This document shows, piece after piece, positions 21,062 through 27,344 of a DNA stretch of 64,000 nucleotides (its first letter is position 1; each line of letters begins with the position of its first letter). Made by a program: the position numbers and the translations under genes. The notes beneath the pieces are model-generated. The model did no database searches and was not told the origin of the DNA. It saw only the letters and a list, made by a program, of their open reading frames with translations. This stretch comes from Chitinophagaceae bacterium (GTDB taxonomy: Bacteria; Bacteroidota; Bacteroidia; Chitinophagales; Chitinophagaceae), in NCBI GenBank assembly GCA_028288585.1, contig JAQBNL010000069.1, positions 1 through 64,000 of the forward strand, in the 5' to 3' direction.

Positions 21062-23599
21062 TTATTTTGCTATAAAAATAAATTCGCTTCCGGATTTTTC
21101 CTGGTCTTTGCCAAAGCCAGCCTGTAAAGGCACAGTATCTTCAAGATAAGATTGAATGAATTTGTACAACATTCCGGAGCTTAGATATTTTTTTTCCTTA
21201 GCAGCTCTTCTTAATCCTTCTAAAAGAAAATAAGCGAACGGAGAATGTTGCCCATTATAATCATCTCCTACCTCTTCTGTTTTACTTCCCGCAGTTATGT
21301 ATTTTCTTGTTGTCATCTGTAACTTTTTGCCAAGGGTCTTATCAGTAAGTCTGCCGGTTAAATTATAATTAATGTTCCCTCCCAGAGATTCGTCATTATC
21401 GCTAAAAGCACCGCTGAAGCAAACATCAAGCAATACAATGATTTGTTTTGCCCTGTAATTATCTGTAATATTCCTTAGTTGATTGAATGGGATATAACTC
21501 GTTAAAAAAGTATCTGCCCATAATGCTTTTGAATCTGCTGTCACAATAAATCCATCTCGGAAGATAGTGCTGTCGTAATATCCATGTCCAGCCAGGTACA
21601 ATAAAAATTGATCATTTTCCTGCAAAATATTCCGGTAAGCATACAATGAATTGTATATCTGTTTTAATGTTGGATTTTTAAGTACTGTTGTTTTAAATCC
21701 AAATAAACCTGATAAAGTATCCGCAACAGAAAATGCATCATTAACAGGATTCTGCAGCTGATTCCATGTAGAAAATTTGTCTGTGCCAATCACCAGTGCA
21801 TATTTATTACCAATAGAAGTTTTAGAATCTTTATCATCAGTTTCATTTTCCCCGGCACCTCTCGTATTTGTTTTTAACGATACATCTTTCGTAAAATAAT
21901 ATTGCAGGTCTTCTACAAATTGCTTTTCAAAAAAGAAATTAATATATTGTCTTTTAAAAGAACATTTGAATTGTTGATTTCGAAATTCATAAACTACATT
22001 CTCCCGTTTAAACGTTACATCACTGAACAGGTCAAAAATATTTGCATTATTATCTATAAGTAATGTAAAAAAATATAAGCCAGGCCCATGATCAATTTTC
22101 CCATTACAATTCACATCATCCAATCCTATACCGTCAGGTACAATTATTACCCTGTTCCGCTTTCTTATATCAGATATTACGGGATTTGATTTAATCATAG
22201 ATTTTACAAATTCTCTTTTAAAATTTTCACTTGGCCCGGCTTCTGTAAACAATAGCTGCTTATCACATTTAATATAATCAAACAATTTTTTTACATTTTG
22301 CAAAGAGAGAACATCACTTTCATTAATACCTGACCGATCAAAAGGGCTTACCATTTTTGATATTGAGGGATAAAACCATGTTTCTTCGTATTGGCCATTT
22401 TTATTCAGAGGCTGGTTAGTTAACCCCGCAAAGAAAAATGCAAAGACATCATCATCTTTTGCCTCATTAATAATTTGATTAATTGCTTTGATAATCGAAT
22501 CTTTAGTGGCCGACCTATCTAACAATAGCCATGTTTTACTTACTCCGCCACCTTGTTGAAGAAATGATTTATTCATTTTATCCGCAAACAACTCAGCGTC
22601 TTTACTGCAATTAGAAAATATTCCTGCGGCGGCAGTATAATTACTTATGCCAATTGATAAAATAAACAATCTTGAATCCCGGGAAATATTATTTGATTTT
22701 TTATCTCCCGGTATTTTAATATCTGTTGTAACAACTCCACCTAAAACATTCCTTTCAACTACACCGGCAATGGCGGGTGTTTGGCCCGGAGCAATTATTG
22801 CCATCTGTTGCTTTATTCCTGAAAATAAATTTGAATATTTTACTAATTGCTGCAATTTAAGGCTGCTGCAATATTTCTTTATTGCTAATGAAAACGAACG
22901 TTGTAAAGGCTCCTTGTCTCCAACAAAATAAGATTCTTCTTTATTAAGGCAGGACGTAATCATTATAAAGGGAGAAAGCCCGGCTTCGCTATCACTGATC
23001 TGTAAAAAACCACCACGCCCAAGTATACTTTGAGGATTAGAATTTTTTGGGCCGAAATGAGAAGCATCCATTGTAAAAAAGCACTGGCCGCTAACCCCAA
23101 TTTTTTTCCTTATTCGTTGTATGATATTTATTAGTTCATAATCAATAATTGCATATGAAAGATCAGGTGTCTTATTATTCATTACTGCATCAGTAACATC
23201 CTCAACCGAAGGAGCATCAAAAGGCATAAAGACCTGCTTTAAGGTATCGGTTTGTAATTGAAAGCCACCTCCTGAAAAATGCAGGTAAACTGCATCGCCT
23301 TCTCCAGCATTTTTTAAAATCGCATTTAATGAATTGACGATGTTTTTTTTTGTAGCCTGTTCATCTCTTAAAATATCTATGATGGGGTCGGAAGCAAATC
23401 TTTTTATAAAATACTCTATATTATCTGCGTCTTCCCTGGAATTAACTTTTGGCCATGAAGGTTGCTCAGCATATGAACCGATAGAAATAATAAGTGCATA
23501 AGTTGGATGCGCTATTCCATTGTTTTTAAATGGATGAGCAACAGAAATCAGAATAAATGAAAAAGAAAATAAGACTGCAAGAAAAAATTTATACTTCAT
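21062..23599 (-). CDS. Secreted caspase-family (C14-like) protein with three caspase-like domains
   Basis: C-terminal domain has LLYLAGHGYYD and IIVLLDVCFSGAF. Two upstream domains keep the fold motifs but have FSGGG/TMDASHFG and FFAGLTN/LLFTEAGPS. Confidence 0.85.
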   Translation of the reverse strand: MKYKFFLAVLFSFSFILISVAHPFKNNGIAHPTYALIISIGSYAEQPSWPKVNSREDADNIEYFIKRFASDPIIDILRDEQATKKNIVNSLNAILKNAGEGDAVYLHFSGGGFQLQTDTLKQVFMPFDAPSVEDVTDAVMNNKTPDLSYAIIDYELINIIQRIRKKIGVSGQCFFTMDASHFGPKNSNPQSILGRGGFLQISDSEAGLSPFIMITSCLNKEESYFVGDKEPLQRSFSLAIKKYCSSLKLQQLVKYSNLFSGIKQQMAIIAPGQTPAIAGVVERNVLGGVVTTDIKIPGDKKSNNISRDSRLFILSIGISNYTAAAGIFSNCSKDAELFADKMNKSFLQQGGGVSKTWLLLDRSATKDSIIKAINQIINEAKDDDVFAFFFAGLTNQPLNKNGQYEETWFYPSISKMVSPFDRSGINESDVLSLQNVKKLFDYIKCDKQLLFTEAGPSENFKREFVKSMIKSNPVISDIRKRNRVIIVPDGIGLDDVNCNGKIDHGPGLYFFTLLIDNNANIFDLFSDVTFKRENVVYEFRNQQFKCSFKRQYINFFFEKQFVEDLQYYFTKDVSLKTNTRGAGENETDDKDSKTSIGNKYALVIGTDKFSTWNQLQNPVNDAFSVADTLSGLFGFKTTVLKNPTLKQIYNSLYAYRNILQENDQFLLYLAGHGYYDSTIFRDGFIVTADSKALWADTFLTSYIPFNQLRNITDNYRAKQIIVLLDVCFSGAFSDNDESLGGNINYNLTGRLTDKTLGKKLQMTTRKYITAGSKTEEVGDDYNGQHSPFAYFLLEGLRRAAKEKKYLSSGMLYKFIQSYLEDTVPLQAGFGKDQEKSGSEFIFIAK

Positions 23600-23607
23600 G
23601 CAGTAAG

Positions 23608-24630
23608 CTATGAAAAAGAATTCAAAAATGTAATTCCCAAACCGGGCTGATCGCTAAGGATCACTTTTCCATAATCAAAATTAATTCCTGTAGCTACATC
23701 CTCTGCCAGCAATAAAGGGCCATCCATATCAACATGATCGAGTAAAGGCAGTAAATGTGCAACTGCTGCACTGCCAACAGTGCTTTCATTCATACTGCCT
23801 GCCATCACCTGCATGTTTAGTTCTCTTGCTTTCGTTATCATTCGCCTTGCAGGTGTTATACCGCTGCACTTGGTAAGCTTTATATTAACCCCATGAAAAT
23901 GTTCATGGCATTTCCCTACATCATTTTCTGCAACACAGCTCTCATCAGCAAATAACGGCAGTGGCGATCTCTCAAATAAAAATTTCATCCCTTCCCAATC
24001 ATCTTTTGCTAAAGGTTGCTCAATTAATTCAATATTTAAATTTTTAAACGCACTGATTTTTTCCAGGGCCTCATCGGCCTTCCATGCTGCATTAGCATCA
24101 ATTCTTATAACAGAAGATGTATGTTTTCTCAGTTCAGTAATTATTTCAACATCATGCTCAGTACCTAATTTTATTTTATAGATTGGCCAGGGATTTTCTT
24201 TCATCTTATCAACCATAACTTCAATTGTATCTATGCCAATGGTAAAATCAGTTACTGGTGTTTTTGAAATATCCAGTCCCCATAGCTTATACAAAGGTTT
24301 TCTTTTCATCTTCCCATAAAGATCCCATCCTGCCATATCCAAAGCACAAACCAAAAATGAATTTTTTGGAAAAAGATGATGGCAATAATGCCACCAGCGC
24401 TCGGGATCGATAAAAGAAAATTTCTCAATACTATTTTTTTTCGCTTCAAGGTCTTCAATCATTTTTTCAACCGGTATATCATAATAACTTATAGCGGGCG
24501 CTTCGCCATAACCCTTTATGCCAAAGTGTTCCAGCTCCACTATTAAAGTTGGCTGGTGTGTTTTTGTACCCCGTGAAATAGTAAAGGGATGTTTAAAGCG
24601 AAGATTGTACGCCCTGTATTTTATTTTCAT
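23608..24630 (-). CDS. Dipeptide epimerase (enolase superfamily, L-Ala-D/L-Glu epimerase type)
   Basis: FKHPFTISRGTKTHQPTLIVELE, YKIKLGTEHD, IRIDANAAW, ADESC, KLTKCSGI. Confidence 0.88.
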   Translation of the reverse strand: MKIKYRAYNLRFKHPFTISRGTKTHQPTLIVELEHFGIKGYGEAPAISYYDIPVEKMIEDLEAKKNSIEKFSFIDPERWWHYCHHLFPKNSFLVCALDMAGWDLYGKMKRKPLYKLWGLDISKTPVTDFTIGIDTIEVMVDKMKENPWPIYKIKLGTEHDVEIITELRKHTSSVIRIDANAAWKADEALEKISAFKNLNIELIEQPLAKDDWEGMKFLFERSPLPLFADESCVAENDVGKCHEHFHGVNIKLTKCSGITPARRMITKARELNMQVMAGSMNESTVGSAAVAHLLPLLDHVDMDGPLLLAEDVATGINFDYGKVILSDQPGLGITFLNSFS

Positions 24631-27344
24631 GCTCTTGCGCTATCCGTAATTAAAGTTTTTAATTCTTTGGTAAAATCTTTTTGCCCCGCCAGTTCCTCTA
24701 ATGGAATATGCATCCTGTATTTCCAAAAATGGTTTGCGTCGGAAGGTTGGTTAATTCTTTCTTCATGCGGATTCTCTCTGCGCAATTTTGCGCTCATACC
24801 CAGCAGATCCTGTATTTGAAAAATACTCCACATTGCAGGTGAATAAAGATGTTGTAAAATAATTTCTTTACTTATCATTGGCTCACATACATCAGGCGCT
24901 TTACCATAATGCCCCATAACATAATTATAAAACTTTTGTGTAAGCGCTCTATCTTCTTCCCACCATTCACGCAGGGTGCTCATATCGTGTGTAGAAGGAG
25001 TTACTACAGAAAGATACGGCGCTGCCTTAGGATGAAAGAAATCGCTTGCAGGATCTTTGGGCATGCGTTGAATTTCAAGACTTAAAATACCTGTCTGCTT
25101 CATTACTTCCGGAACACAGTGGGGAACCATACCAAGATCTTCTCCGCATATAAGCATATTAGTGCTTCGCTTCAGCGCAGGCAATTTCTGCATGGCTTCT
25201 TTTTCCCATAACACATCCTGCCTGCTGAAAAAATAATTTATATAGAGCGCCTGCAATTGCTTTTGTATGTCAGCATTAAGTTGTTGAAAGGAAGAAGTTT
25301 GCTGCATTGAAATCCTAAAATGGAATTGCTGCATTTGGGATCCTTCTACTTCAATTAAAATAATATTGCTTAACAGCTCGAACAAGCCCTGCTTAATCAC
25401 CTCATTATTTTCTGCAGAAGATCCTTCAAAATATTTTTCAACTTTTCTTTGTGTATCAAACTCTTCTTTTAATTCATACAACCCATCGCTTTTTATATTT
25501 AAAAAGGTTTTTTTTACGCCGGCTATGCTTTCGCCAAACTGCTGCTGCAAAATATTTTCAGTGATAAACGGCTTACAATAACGGCTATAATCAAACCATA
25601 TCCTGCTTTTATCAAACTCAGTTATGTGTATTGGAATGGCAGGAACAAATCTTCCTAAAATTCCTTCAACAGCATTGATGGGGATACTCCATATTCTAAA
25701 AAAACCAAGAATGTGATCTATGCGAAATGAATCAAAATAATTATTCATCTGCGCAAAACGGTTACGCCACCATGCATAATCATCTTCCTGCATTTTTTTC
25801 CAGTTGTATGTTGGGAAAGCCCAGTTTTGTCCTTTTATGGCAAAGTCATCAGGCGGTGCGCCTGCCTGTTCATTTACATTATATAAAGATGGATCAACCC
25901 AAACATCACAACTGTTGCGGGATACGCCGATAGGAATATCTCCTTTTAAAATAATTCCTTTTTTATGAGCATACTCGCTTGCCTCTTTTAATTGAAGGTG
26001 CAAATGATATTGAATAAAATAATGAAAACATATTTCATCATAATGAGGCTGAAGTGGTGAAACCAATTTTTGAATAGCATCCTCATTATATATTTTATTA
26101 GATTTCCATGTGGTGAAATCTGCTGTTTTATATTTATCTCTTAAAAATCAATAAGCAGCATACGGAACCAGCCACTCACGGTTCAAATCAAAAAAATCAA
26201 AATAATTAATATCGGTAAGAAATAGCTCTTTTTTGGCCTGGTATAATTCTCTAAGAACTGAAAACTTAAACTTCATCACTGCTTCATAATCCAGGTCTGG
26301 CTGTTGATCCAGGCTTTTTTTCTTTTTATTCAATGACTTTACCAACGAAGCATGCTGTGCGCCTGCAACTGAATCAAGATTTATATAAAGAGGGTGTAAA
26401 GCAAATGCTGAAATGGCTGCATAAGGATAAGAATCCTTTGCAGAATGCGTAGCAGTAGTATCGTTAACAGGAAGAAACTGCAGCAATTTTAATCCTGCCT
26501 GGCTTGCCCACTCCACTAACAATTTAATATCATTGAATTCACCGGTGCCAAAATTTTTTTTGCTTCTTAAACTAAATACGGGTATGGCCACCCCGGCGCC
26601 TCTCCAGCTTCTTTGTAAATGTATAAATCCATCATGTAAAACTATGGCCTGTTTTTTAACGGGTTCAATTTGCAAAATACGGTTACTTCCATCTTCATAA
26701 GTAAAAGTTTTACTTACGGAATTATAAATGCCATACTTATACCTGAGCGGAAAATCTTCTTTACTTAAATTTATTTTAATACTGAGCCAATTACCACCAG
26801 GCTTTAATGGTAAGAGTTTTTTTACATCCCAGTTTTTAAACATTTTTCCCGAACCGGTAATGCATACCCATTCGCCTGCATTTAATAATGGGGCTTTTAC
26901 TTTAAACTCATGCGTGTAAAATTTTGCCTCTTTTAGTTTGGGCGCTTTAGTTTGCCGGGGCAGCAAAACCTGCTGAAAGGGCTTTGTATAAAAAGCATTC
27001 TCAATATTACTTTCAGAATTCCAGGTATCAATTAATATAATTTCTTTTGTGGTGTATATTTCTGTATCAATAATCCTGTCCTTGTCTGCATCTAAAATAT
27101 CAACACTCCTTTCTTCCCGTAAAATATACCTGTAATTTATTTCTTCTTTACTCTTACCTGGAATTTCAATTGTGCCATACCAAAACTCATCATTTAGATA
27201 AGATAAGGCAAATGCTTCCGCAGCTTTATCGTTTCCCAGGGCATCAGTATTACCCGATACAAATATTGTTTGTCCATACCTTGTATGGTAGCGTAAATAA
27301 AAATGAATCCTCATGATATAGCTAAAGAGCGGCAATTTAAACAA
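24627..27344 (-). pseudogene. malQ: 4-alpha-glucanotransferase (MalQ-type with N-terminal starch-binding-like domains), interrupted by an in-frame TGA at 26148-26150
   Basis: ORFs 26148-27344 and 24627-26066 lie in the same frame. Translation across the gap reads ...EWLVPYAAY*FLRDKYKTADFTTWKSNKIYNEDAIQKLVSPLQP..., continuous MalQ sequence. Confidence 0.85.

Follow-up and report, generated by a model that had tools for sequence, protein, structure and literature searches.

The analysed window, a stretch of 64,000 nucleotides from a Chitinophagaceae bacterium (contig JAQBNL010000069.1), carries on its minus strand a single open reading frame at 21062-23599 (window coordinates, as throughout) that encodes a protein of 845 amino acids. 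Three caspase-like domains, here termed D1, D2 and D3 from the N-terminus, follow one another in this protein. The features of the locus are as follows:

23608..24630, minus strand: upstream gene of the enolase superfamily (MR_MLE; Pfam MR_MLE_C, 5.4e-30), separated by 8 bases from the start of the caspase gene
21062..23599, minus strand: whole gene, triple caspase-like (single ORF and Pfam C14), with pseudo-domains D1 and D2 and an intact dyad in D3
23537..23599, minus strand: predicted Sec-type signal peptide, residues 1-21, MKYKFFLAVLFSFSFILISVA (hydropathy 2.77 over 13 amino acids)
22724..23503, minus strand: D1 pseudo-caspase, residues 33-292; His replaced by G111 and Cys by S180, acids D57 and D178 retained
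23012..23017, minus strand: R195-G196 in D1, candidate cleavage site, following the pseudo-Cys loop, where a caspase p20/p10 linker would sit
21866..22678, minus strand: D2 pseudo-caspase, residues 308-578; His replaced by L393 and Cys by G455, acids D334 and E453 retained
21857..21862, minus strand: R580-G581, candidate autoprocessing site between D2 and D3; RG present in 11/11 linkers
21065..21808, minus strand: D3 caspase domain, residues 598-845; dyad H672 and C727, S1-type acids D621 and D725

Peptidase_C14 (PF00656) is the sole Pfam family above the cut-off in the protein. It matches the full-length sequence in three stretches (6.5e-32), the best of which covers residues 599-807, and the D3 region alone scores 72.8 bits. 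The initial annotation had described three caspase-like domains, two of them degenerate and one with an intact dyad, and the three Pfam stretches together with the residues at the catalytic positions bear this out. All six motifs that it quoted lie within the one frame at the places given, namely FSGGG (23264-23278) and MDASHFG (23051-23071) in D1, FFAGLTN (22415-22435) and FTEAGPS (22229-22249) in D2, and AGHGYYD (21572-21592) and DVCFSGAF (21404-21427) in D3. The edges of the domains had to be redrawn to about 22724-23503 for D1, about 21866-22678 for D2 and 21065-21808 for D3, wider than claimed. A sequencing error or a pseudogene was rejected as an explanation, given the uninterrupted reading frame and the conservation of the dead motifs in other species.

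The His-Cys dyad is absent from D1 (G111/S180) and D2 (L393/G455), and the description above depends on both domains being caspase folds in the first place. This was checked by profile comparison for D1, and by structure and profile for D2, and was upheld for both. Taken alone, D1 passes the Pfam C14 cut-off of 21.4 bits (31.3 bits, 2.1e-7), and D2 falls below it (16.0 bits, E = 0.01). Using hhalign, D1 matched canonical and active exported caspases with a probability of 100%, and the D2 profile matched D1 (97.7%), D3 (96.8%) and the active caspases (97.1%); five unrelated window proteins, which served as negative controls, gave 0.1-0.3% against D2 and 0.1-0.5% over all three domains. The D2-D3 alignment places FAGLTN on AGHGYY and TEAGPS on LDVCFS, which indicates that the residues lost from D2 had been assigned correctly. 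When PDB sequences were searched with a D2 profile that included no active caspase, metacaspases were the best matches (TbMCA2, 3.9e-5). A Foldseek search with an AF2 model of D2 (pLDDT = 72.8, pTM = 0.79) returned MALT1, GSU0716, metacaspases and caspases (probability 1.00, best E = 4.5e-8, TM-scores of about 0.5), and its top matches were MALT1. The alignment used for this model included D1 and D3 rows, so that the model is not fully independent and is weighed below the profile results. A full-length AlphaFold model, based on three alignment rows, had a mean pLDDT of 41, too poor for the D2-D3 interface. Judged by the profiles and the D2 model, both D1 and D2 have a caspase fold and have lost the catalytic dyad.

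D2 served as the query in four overlapping samples of genomes, drawn at the level of the order (399 genomes), the class (395), the family (299) and the phylum (346). A full-length D2 within an intact core of D2 and D3 is present in eleven genes from ten genomes, the window gene included, and all of them are from Bacteroidia, the class of the window genome. The D1-D2-D3 arrangement is found in five (window, G122, G290a, G719 and G588), and the remaining six have D2-D3 without D1 (G087, G290b, G247, G214, G725 and G503). The D3 dyad is kept in 11/11. The D2 His, by comparison, occurs in none of the 11 (L, R, R, Y, Y, F, V, Y, V, F and I take its place) and the D2 Cys is Gly in every one, so that the dead state of D2 must be old and stable. 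The D1 Cys is likewise absent from all five triple members (S, D, S, S, T), four of which have kept the D1 His; the window protein is the only one to have lost it. Apart from a broken copy in G884, D2 did not occur without D3 in these searches. In an assembled-genome collection, a single-protein query returned no homologues and a two-row D2 alignment returned two; no homologues were found in the viral contigs searched.

The three-part architecture is thus recurrent, being seen in four genomes besides that of the window. Because the loss of the dyad is itself conserved across relatives, D1 and D2 are better described as pseudo-protease modules, as had been proposed, than as products of random decay, and their recurrence in the same arrangement gives them the look of functional parts that have been kept. 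D2 is present in every member, whereas D1 is optional (5/11) and missing from G087, a protein that keeps D2-D3 and is a close homologue of that of G122. The two dead domains can therefore not be treated alike, as they had been; in terms of sequence conservation D2 and D3 form the core of the family, and D1 is an optional extra. Some members show peculiarities of their own. In G884 the gene is interrupted between D2 and D3, the C-terminus of the G503 protein is divergent, as if frame-shifted, and the largest member (1146 amino acids; L050 3814-7254, G290) carries about 310 extra residues at its N-terminus, which include MORN-like repeats.

The proteins of G122 and G087 are close homologues and allow a comparison of the two core domains. 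Between them, D2 has a pN of 0.057 and a dN/dS of 0.073, and D3 a pN of 0.050 and a dN/dS of 0.023; as dS in D3 is near saturation, pN is the fairer figure. D2 evolves almost as slowly as the live D3, which implies that it is doing something, and judged from these rates it is under purifying selection. The G087 protein has no D1, yet its upstream flank (84%) and its D2-D3 part align with G122, and D1 can hence come or go while D2-D3 stays. Triple and double forms are intermixed in the tree, with at least three changes of the triple/double label on starred branches, and the tree of D1 is dominated by long branches that are compatible with one or several losses of the Cys. These data bear on the idea that D1 and D2 are mere relics of a duplicated caspase, drifting neutrally towards loss of function. 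The history of D1 offers this idea some footing, given that the window D1 lacks even the His kept in the other four triple members, and that D1 is absent from G087 and present in its close relative G122; the D1 of the window copy could indeed be decaying. For D2, however, the loss of both residues is fixed in 11 genes with an invariant Gly, long motifs are conserved within the domain, and pN nearly equals that of D3. We regard neutral decay as highly improbable.

The surroundings of the gene were compared with those in congeners. The enolase-superfamily gene and the caspase gene are probably co-transcribed. In congener G009 the enolase-superfamily gene lies next to a bPH gene, with 32-33 bases between them and no caspase, and in congener G010 the same spot holds an FAD-linked oxidase-like protein and a short ORF, which are unrelated. 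This caspase gene is absent from all other sampled congeners. The epimerase-like upstream gene was considered as a functional partner and rejected, as the arrangement in G009 marks it as a pre-existing neighbour outside the caspase system. The caspase gene is an accessory insertion at a variable, small gene-turnover site, and its neighbours say little about its function. No conserved neighbour hinting at a substrate was found, and the other family genomes have no adjacent genes in common save for caspase genes in G588 and G290; there the family member stands beside other caspase genes (caspase-TPR and WD40/caspase-like), three caspase genes lying close together in G588. Five further caspase loci exist in the genome of the window species, and such a D2 is found at none of them (0/5). 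An anti-phage role is not claimed, because PADLOC returned a generic caspase model only and the NCBIfam EACC1 caspase match is below its cut-off (79.7 against 140 bits). Further upstream, the gene for a 4-alpha-glucanotransferase (GH77; 24627-27344, minus strand) has one in-frame stop after codon 398 with the two halves otherwise in the same frame, and may be a pseudogene or reflect an assembly error.

The N-terminus resembles a signal peptide, with a hydrophobic core (FLAVLFSFSFILI) followed by SVA|HP, and a comparable hydrophobic stretch is present in 11/11 family members. The suggestion of export made in the initial annotation is consistent with this hydropathy pattern, and export of the protein is plausible as a prediction from its N-terminus. 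The site of action would then be the periplasm or the cell exterior.

The domain that would act there has features of an arginine-directed enzyme. Acids occupy two S1-equivalent positions in all three domains of every one of the 11 proteins, with Glu instead of Asp at the C-2 position of D2 in 9/11. We take these positions to correspond to Asp95 and Asp211 of TbMCA2. Both residues have been linked to basic P1 specificity in that enzyme (PMC4357240). The PDB sequence nearest to D3 is that of the Arg-specific MALT1, whose natural substrates are cut at R|G with a requirement for Arg in P1 and a fairly strict one for Gly in P1' (PMC6207715). The invariant acids and the kinship with MALT1 lead to the prediction that D3 prefers Arg, and D3 is probably an Arg-specific protease of the metacaspase/paracaspase type. 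Retention of the acids in domains that have lost catalysis (D2 11/11, D1 5/5) also lends itself to another explanation, in which D1 and D2 serve to bind substrates or ligands, keep a basic-peptide pocket and either feed D3 or sense periplasmic peptides. The fold itself may require the helix-1 Asp, however, the Glu that replaces Asp at C-2 in most D2 domains departs from the pattern, and the loop in which Cys has become Gly may form no pocket. Such a binding role seems to us unlikely.

The 845 residues of the protein contain only two Arg-Gly (RG) dipeptides, at R195 and R580. The linker between D2 and D3 is 33-41 residues long and poorly conserved, its positions other than RG averaging 19% identity; each of the 11 linkers nevertheless has exactly one RG, where 0.11 per linker would be expected from composition. 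The chance of this pattern is about 1e-9 for nine lineages, a figure to be taken as a guide only because the 11 proteins are related. In D1, an RG follows the pseudo-Cys loop in 5/5 triple members. MALT1 is known to undergo auto-proteolysis at R149 (PMC4126661), and the sequence pattern suggests that R580 may similarly be the site at which D3 cleaves its own chain. The invariant linker RG could instead be a structural or docking feature.

From these elements we propose that a single chain forms an exported caspase-type protease that regulates itself, in which D2 would regulate D3 and D3 would cut the linker at R580, a reading to which we assign roughly even chances. D2, and D1 where present, would pack onto D3 as an inbuilt, inactive partner that keeps it latent or restrained. 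On activation, D3 would cut after R580 in the exposed linker, and possibly also after R195 in D1, and this cleavage would release or stabilise the active form. That D2 and D1 may regulate D3, a role which the initial annotation had raised together with scaffolding, is suggested by their conservation and by the analogy with FLIP(L) and caspase-8, the closest among working systems. A more specific form, in which a live Arg-specific caspase is controlled in cis by two pseudo-caspases and is switched when it cleaves itself at an R|G site of the paracaspase type between the dead and live parts, is put forward tentatively.

The position of the dead domains also permits a simpler role, in which D1 and D2 act as a pro-region for folding or export, as an intramolecular chaperone or inhibitor, and are removed at R580 after secretion to play no later part. 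The N-terminal prodomains of gingipains offer a parallel. The location of D1 and D2 at the N-terminus, the export signal and the invariant RG directly before D3 would all suit such a pro-region, and blocking by N-terminal regions is frequent among clan CD enzymes (PMC4357240). Strong constraint on D2 fits a pro-region and a regulatory domain equally well. On the other hand, 550 residues of dead paralogues would be unusual for a pro-region, and we consider this role possible but somewhat doubtful.

The proposed self-regulated protease can be set beside several known systems. With prokaryotic metacaspases and orthocaspases (C14, PF00656) it shares the C14 fold, dyad and both Arg/Lys-linked acids in D3, as well as a D1 that passes the Pfam cut-off, but it has three C14 folds per chain, two of which are dead. 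Substitutions of the dyad in caspase homologues were noted in 2012 (PMC3501461). The bacterial YS-type pseudo-orthocaspases, in which Tyr and Ser replace His and Cys, are mostly from Cyanobacteria and Alphaproteobacteria, with 10 of 1078 Bacteroidetes sequences (PMC6426788); like them, D1 and D2 are bacterial and have lost the dyad, whereas their replacements (G/S in D1, L/G in D2) are not of the YS type and they share their chain with a domain whose dyad is intact. The human pseudo-caspase FLIP(L) forms a pair with caspase-8 and directs how that enzyme is processed (PMC7586951), and here the likeness, that of a dead caspase domain beside a live one whose processing it controls, is one of analogy, since that pair consists of two proteins with death-effector domains, is Asp-specific and acts in the animal cytosol, in contrast to the one chain of the window protein. 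MALT1, the nearest solved sequence to D3 and the top Foldseek match of the D2 model, cuts both R|G sites and itself, but its one caspase domain, which is catalytic, is accompanied by death and Ig domains, neither of which Pfam detects in the window protein, and it functions in eukaryotic signalling. Finally, in gingipain R (C25) the catalytic subdomain B adjoins subdomain A, which is similar but not catalytic (PMC4626109); this protease resembles the window protein in being an exported, Arg-specific protease of Bacteroidota (specificity being predicted for D3) with a live unit beside a dead one, yet it belongs to a different family, and the window protein has no C25 match in Pfam. We found no account of a tandem pseudo/pseudo/active caspase protein in the open-licence literature, which is weak evidence of absence given that the search covered open-licence papers only.

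Control of active caspases by pseudo-caspases is known mainly from animals, as with FLIP(L), and bacterial pseudo-orthocaspases have been described as separate proteins. A conserved bacterial chain that joins dead and live domains suggests that control by a dead partner arose more than once, and it would make cis-regulation by a pseudoprotease testable in one small recombinant protein. The R-G pattern extends to active exported caspases of Bacteroidota, and thus offers a simple prediction of cleavage sites for that group. In nine such relatives of about 680 amino acids, RG recurs after the catalytic Cys, at Cys+7 in 7/9 and at +13 to +18 in 9/9. In most of them RG is above the level expected from composition, and most have more of these dipeptides near the C-terminus; the repeats are possible self-processing sites.
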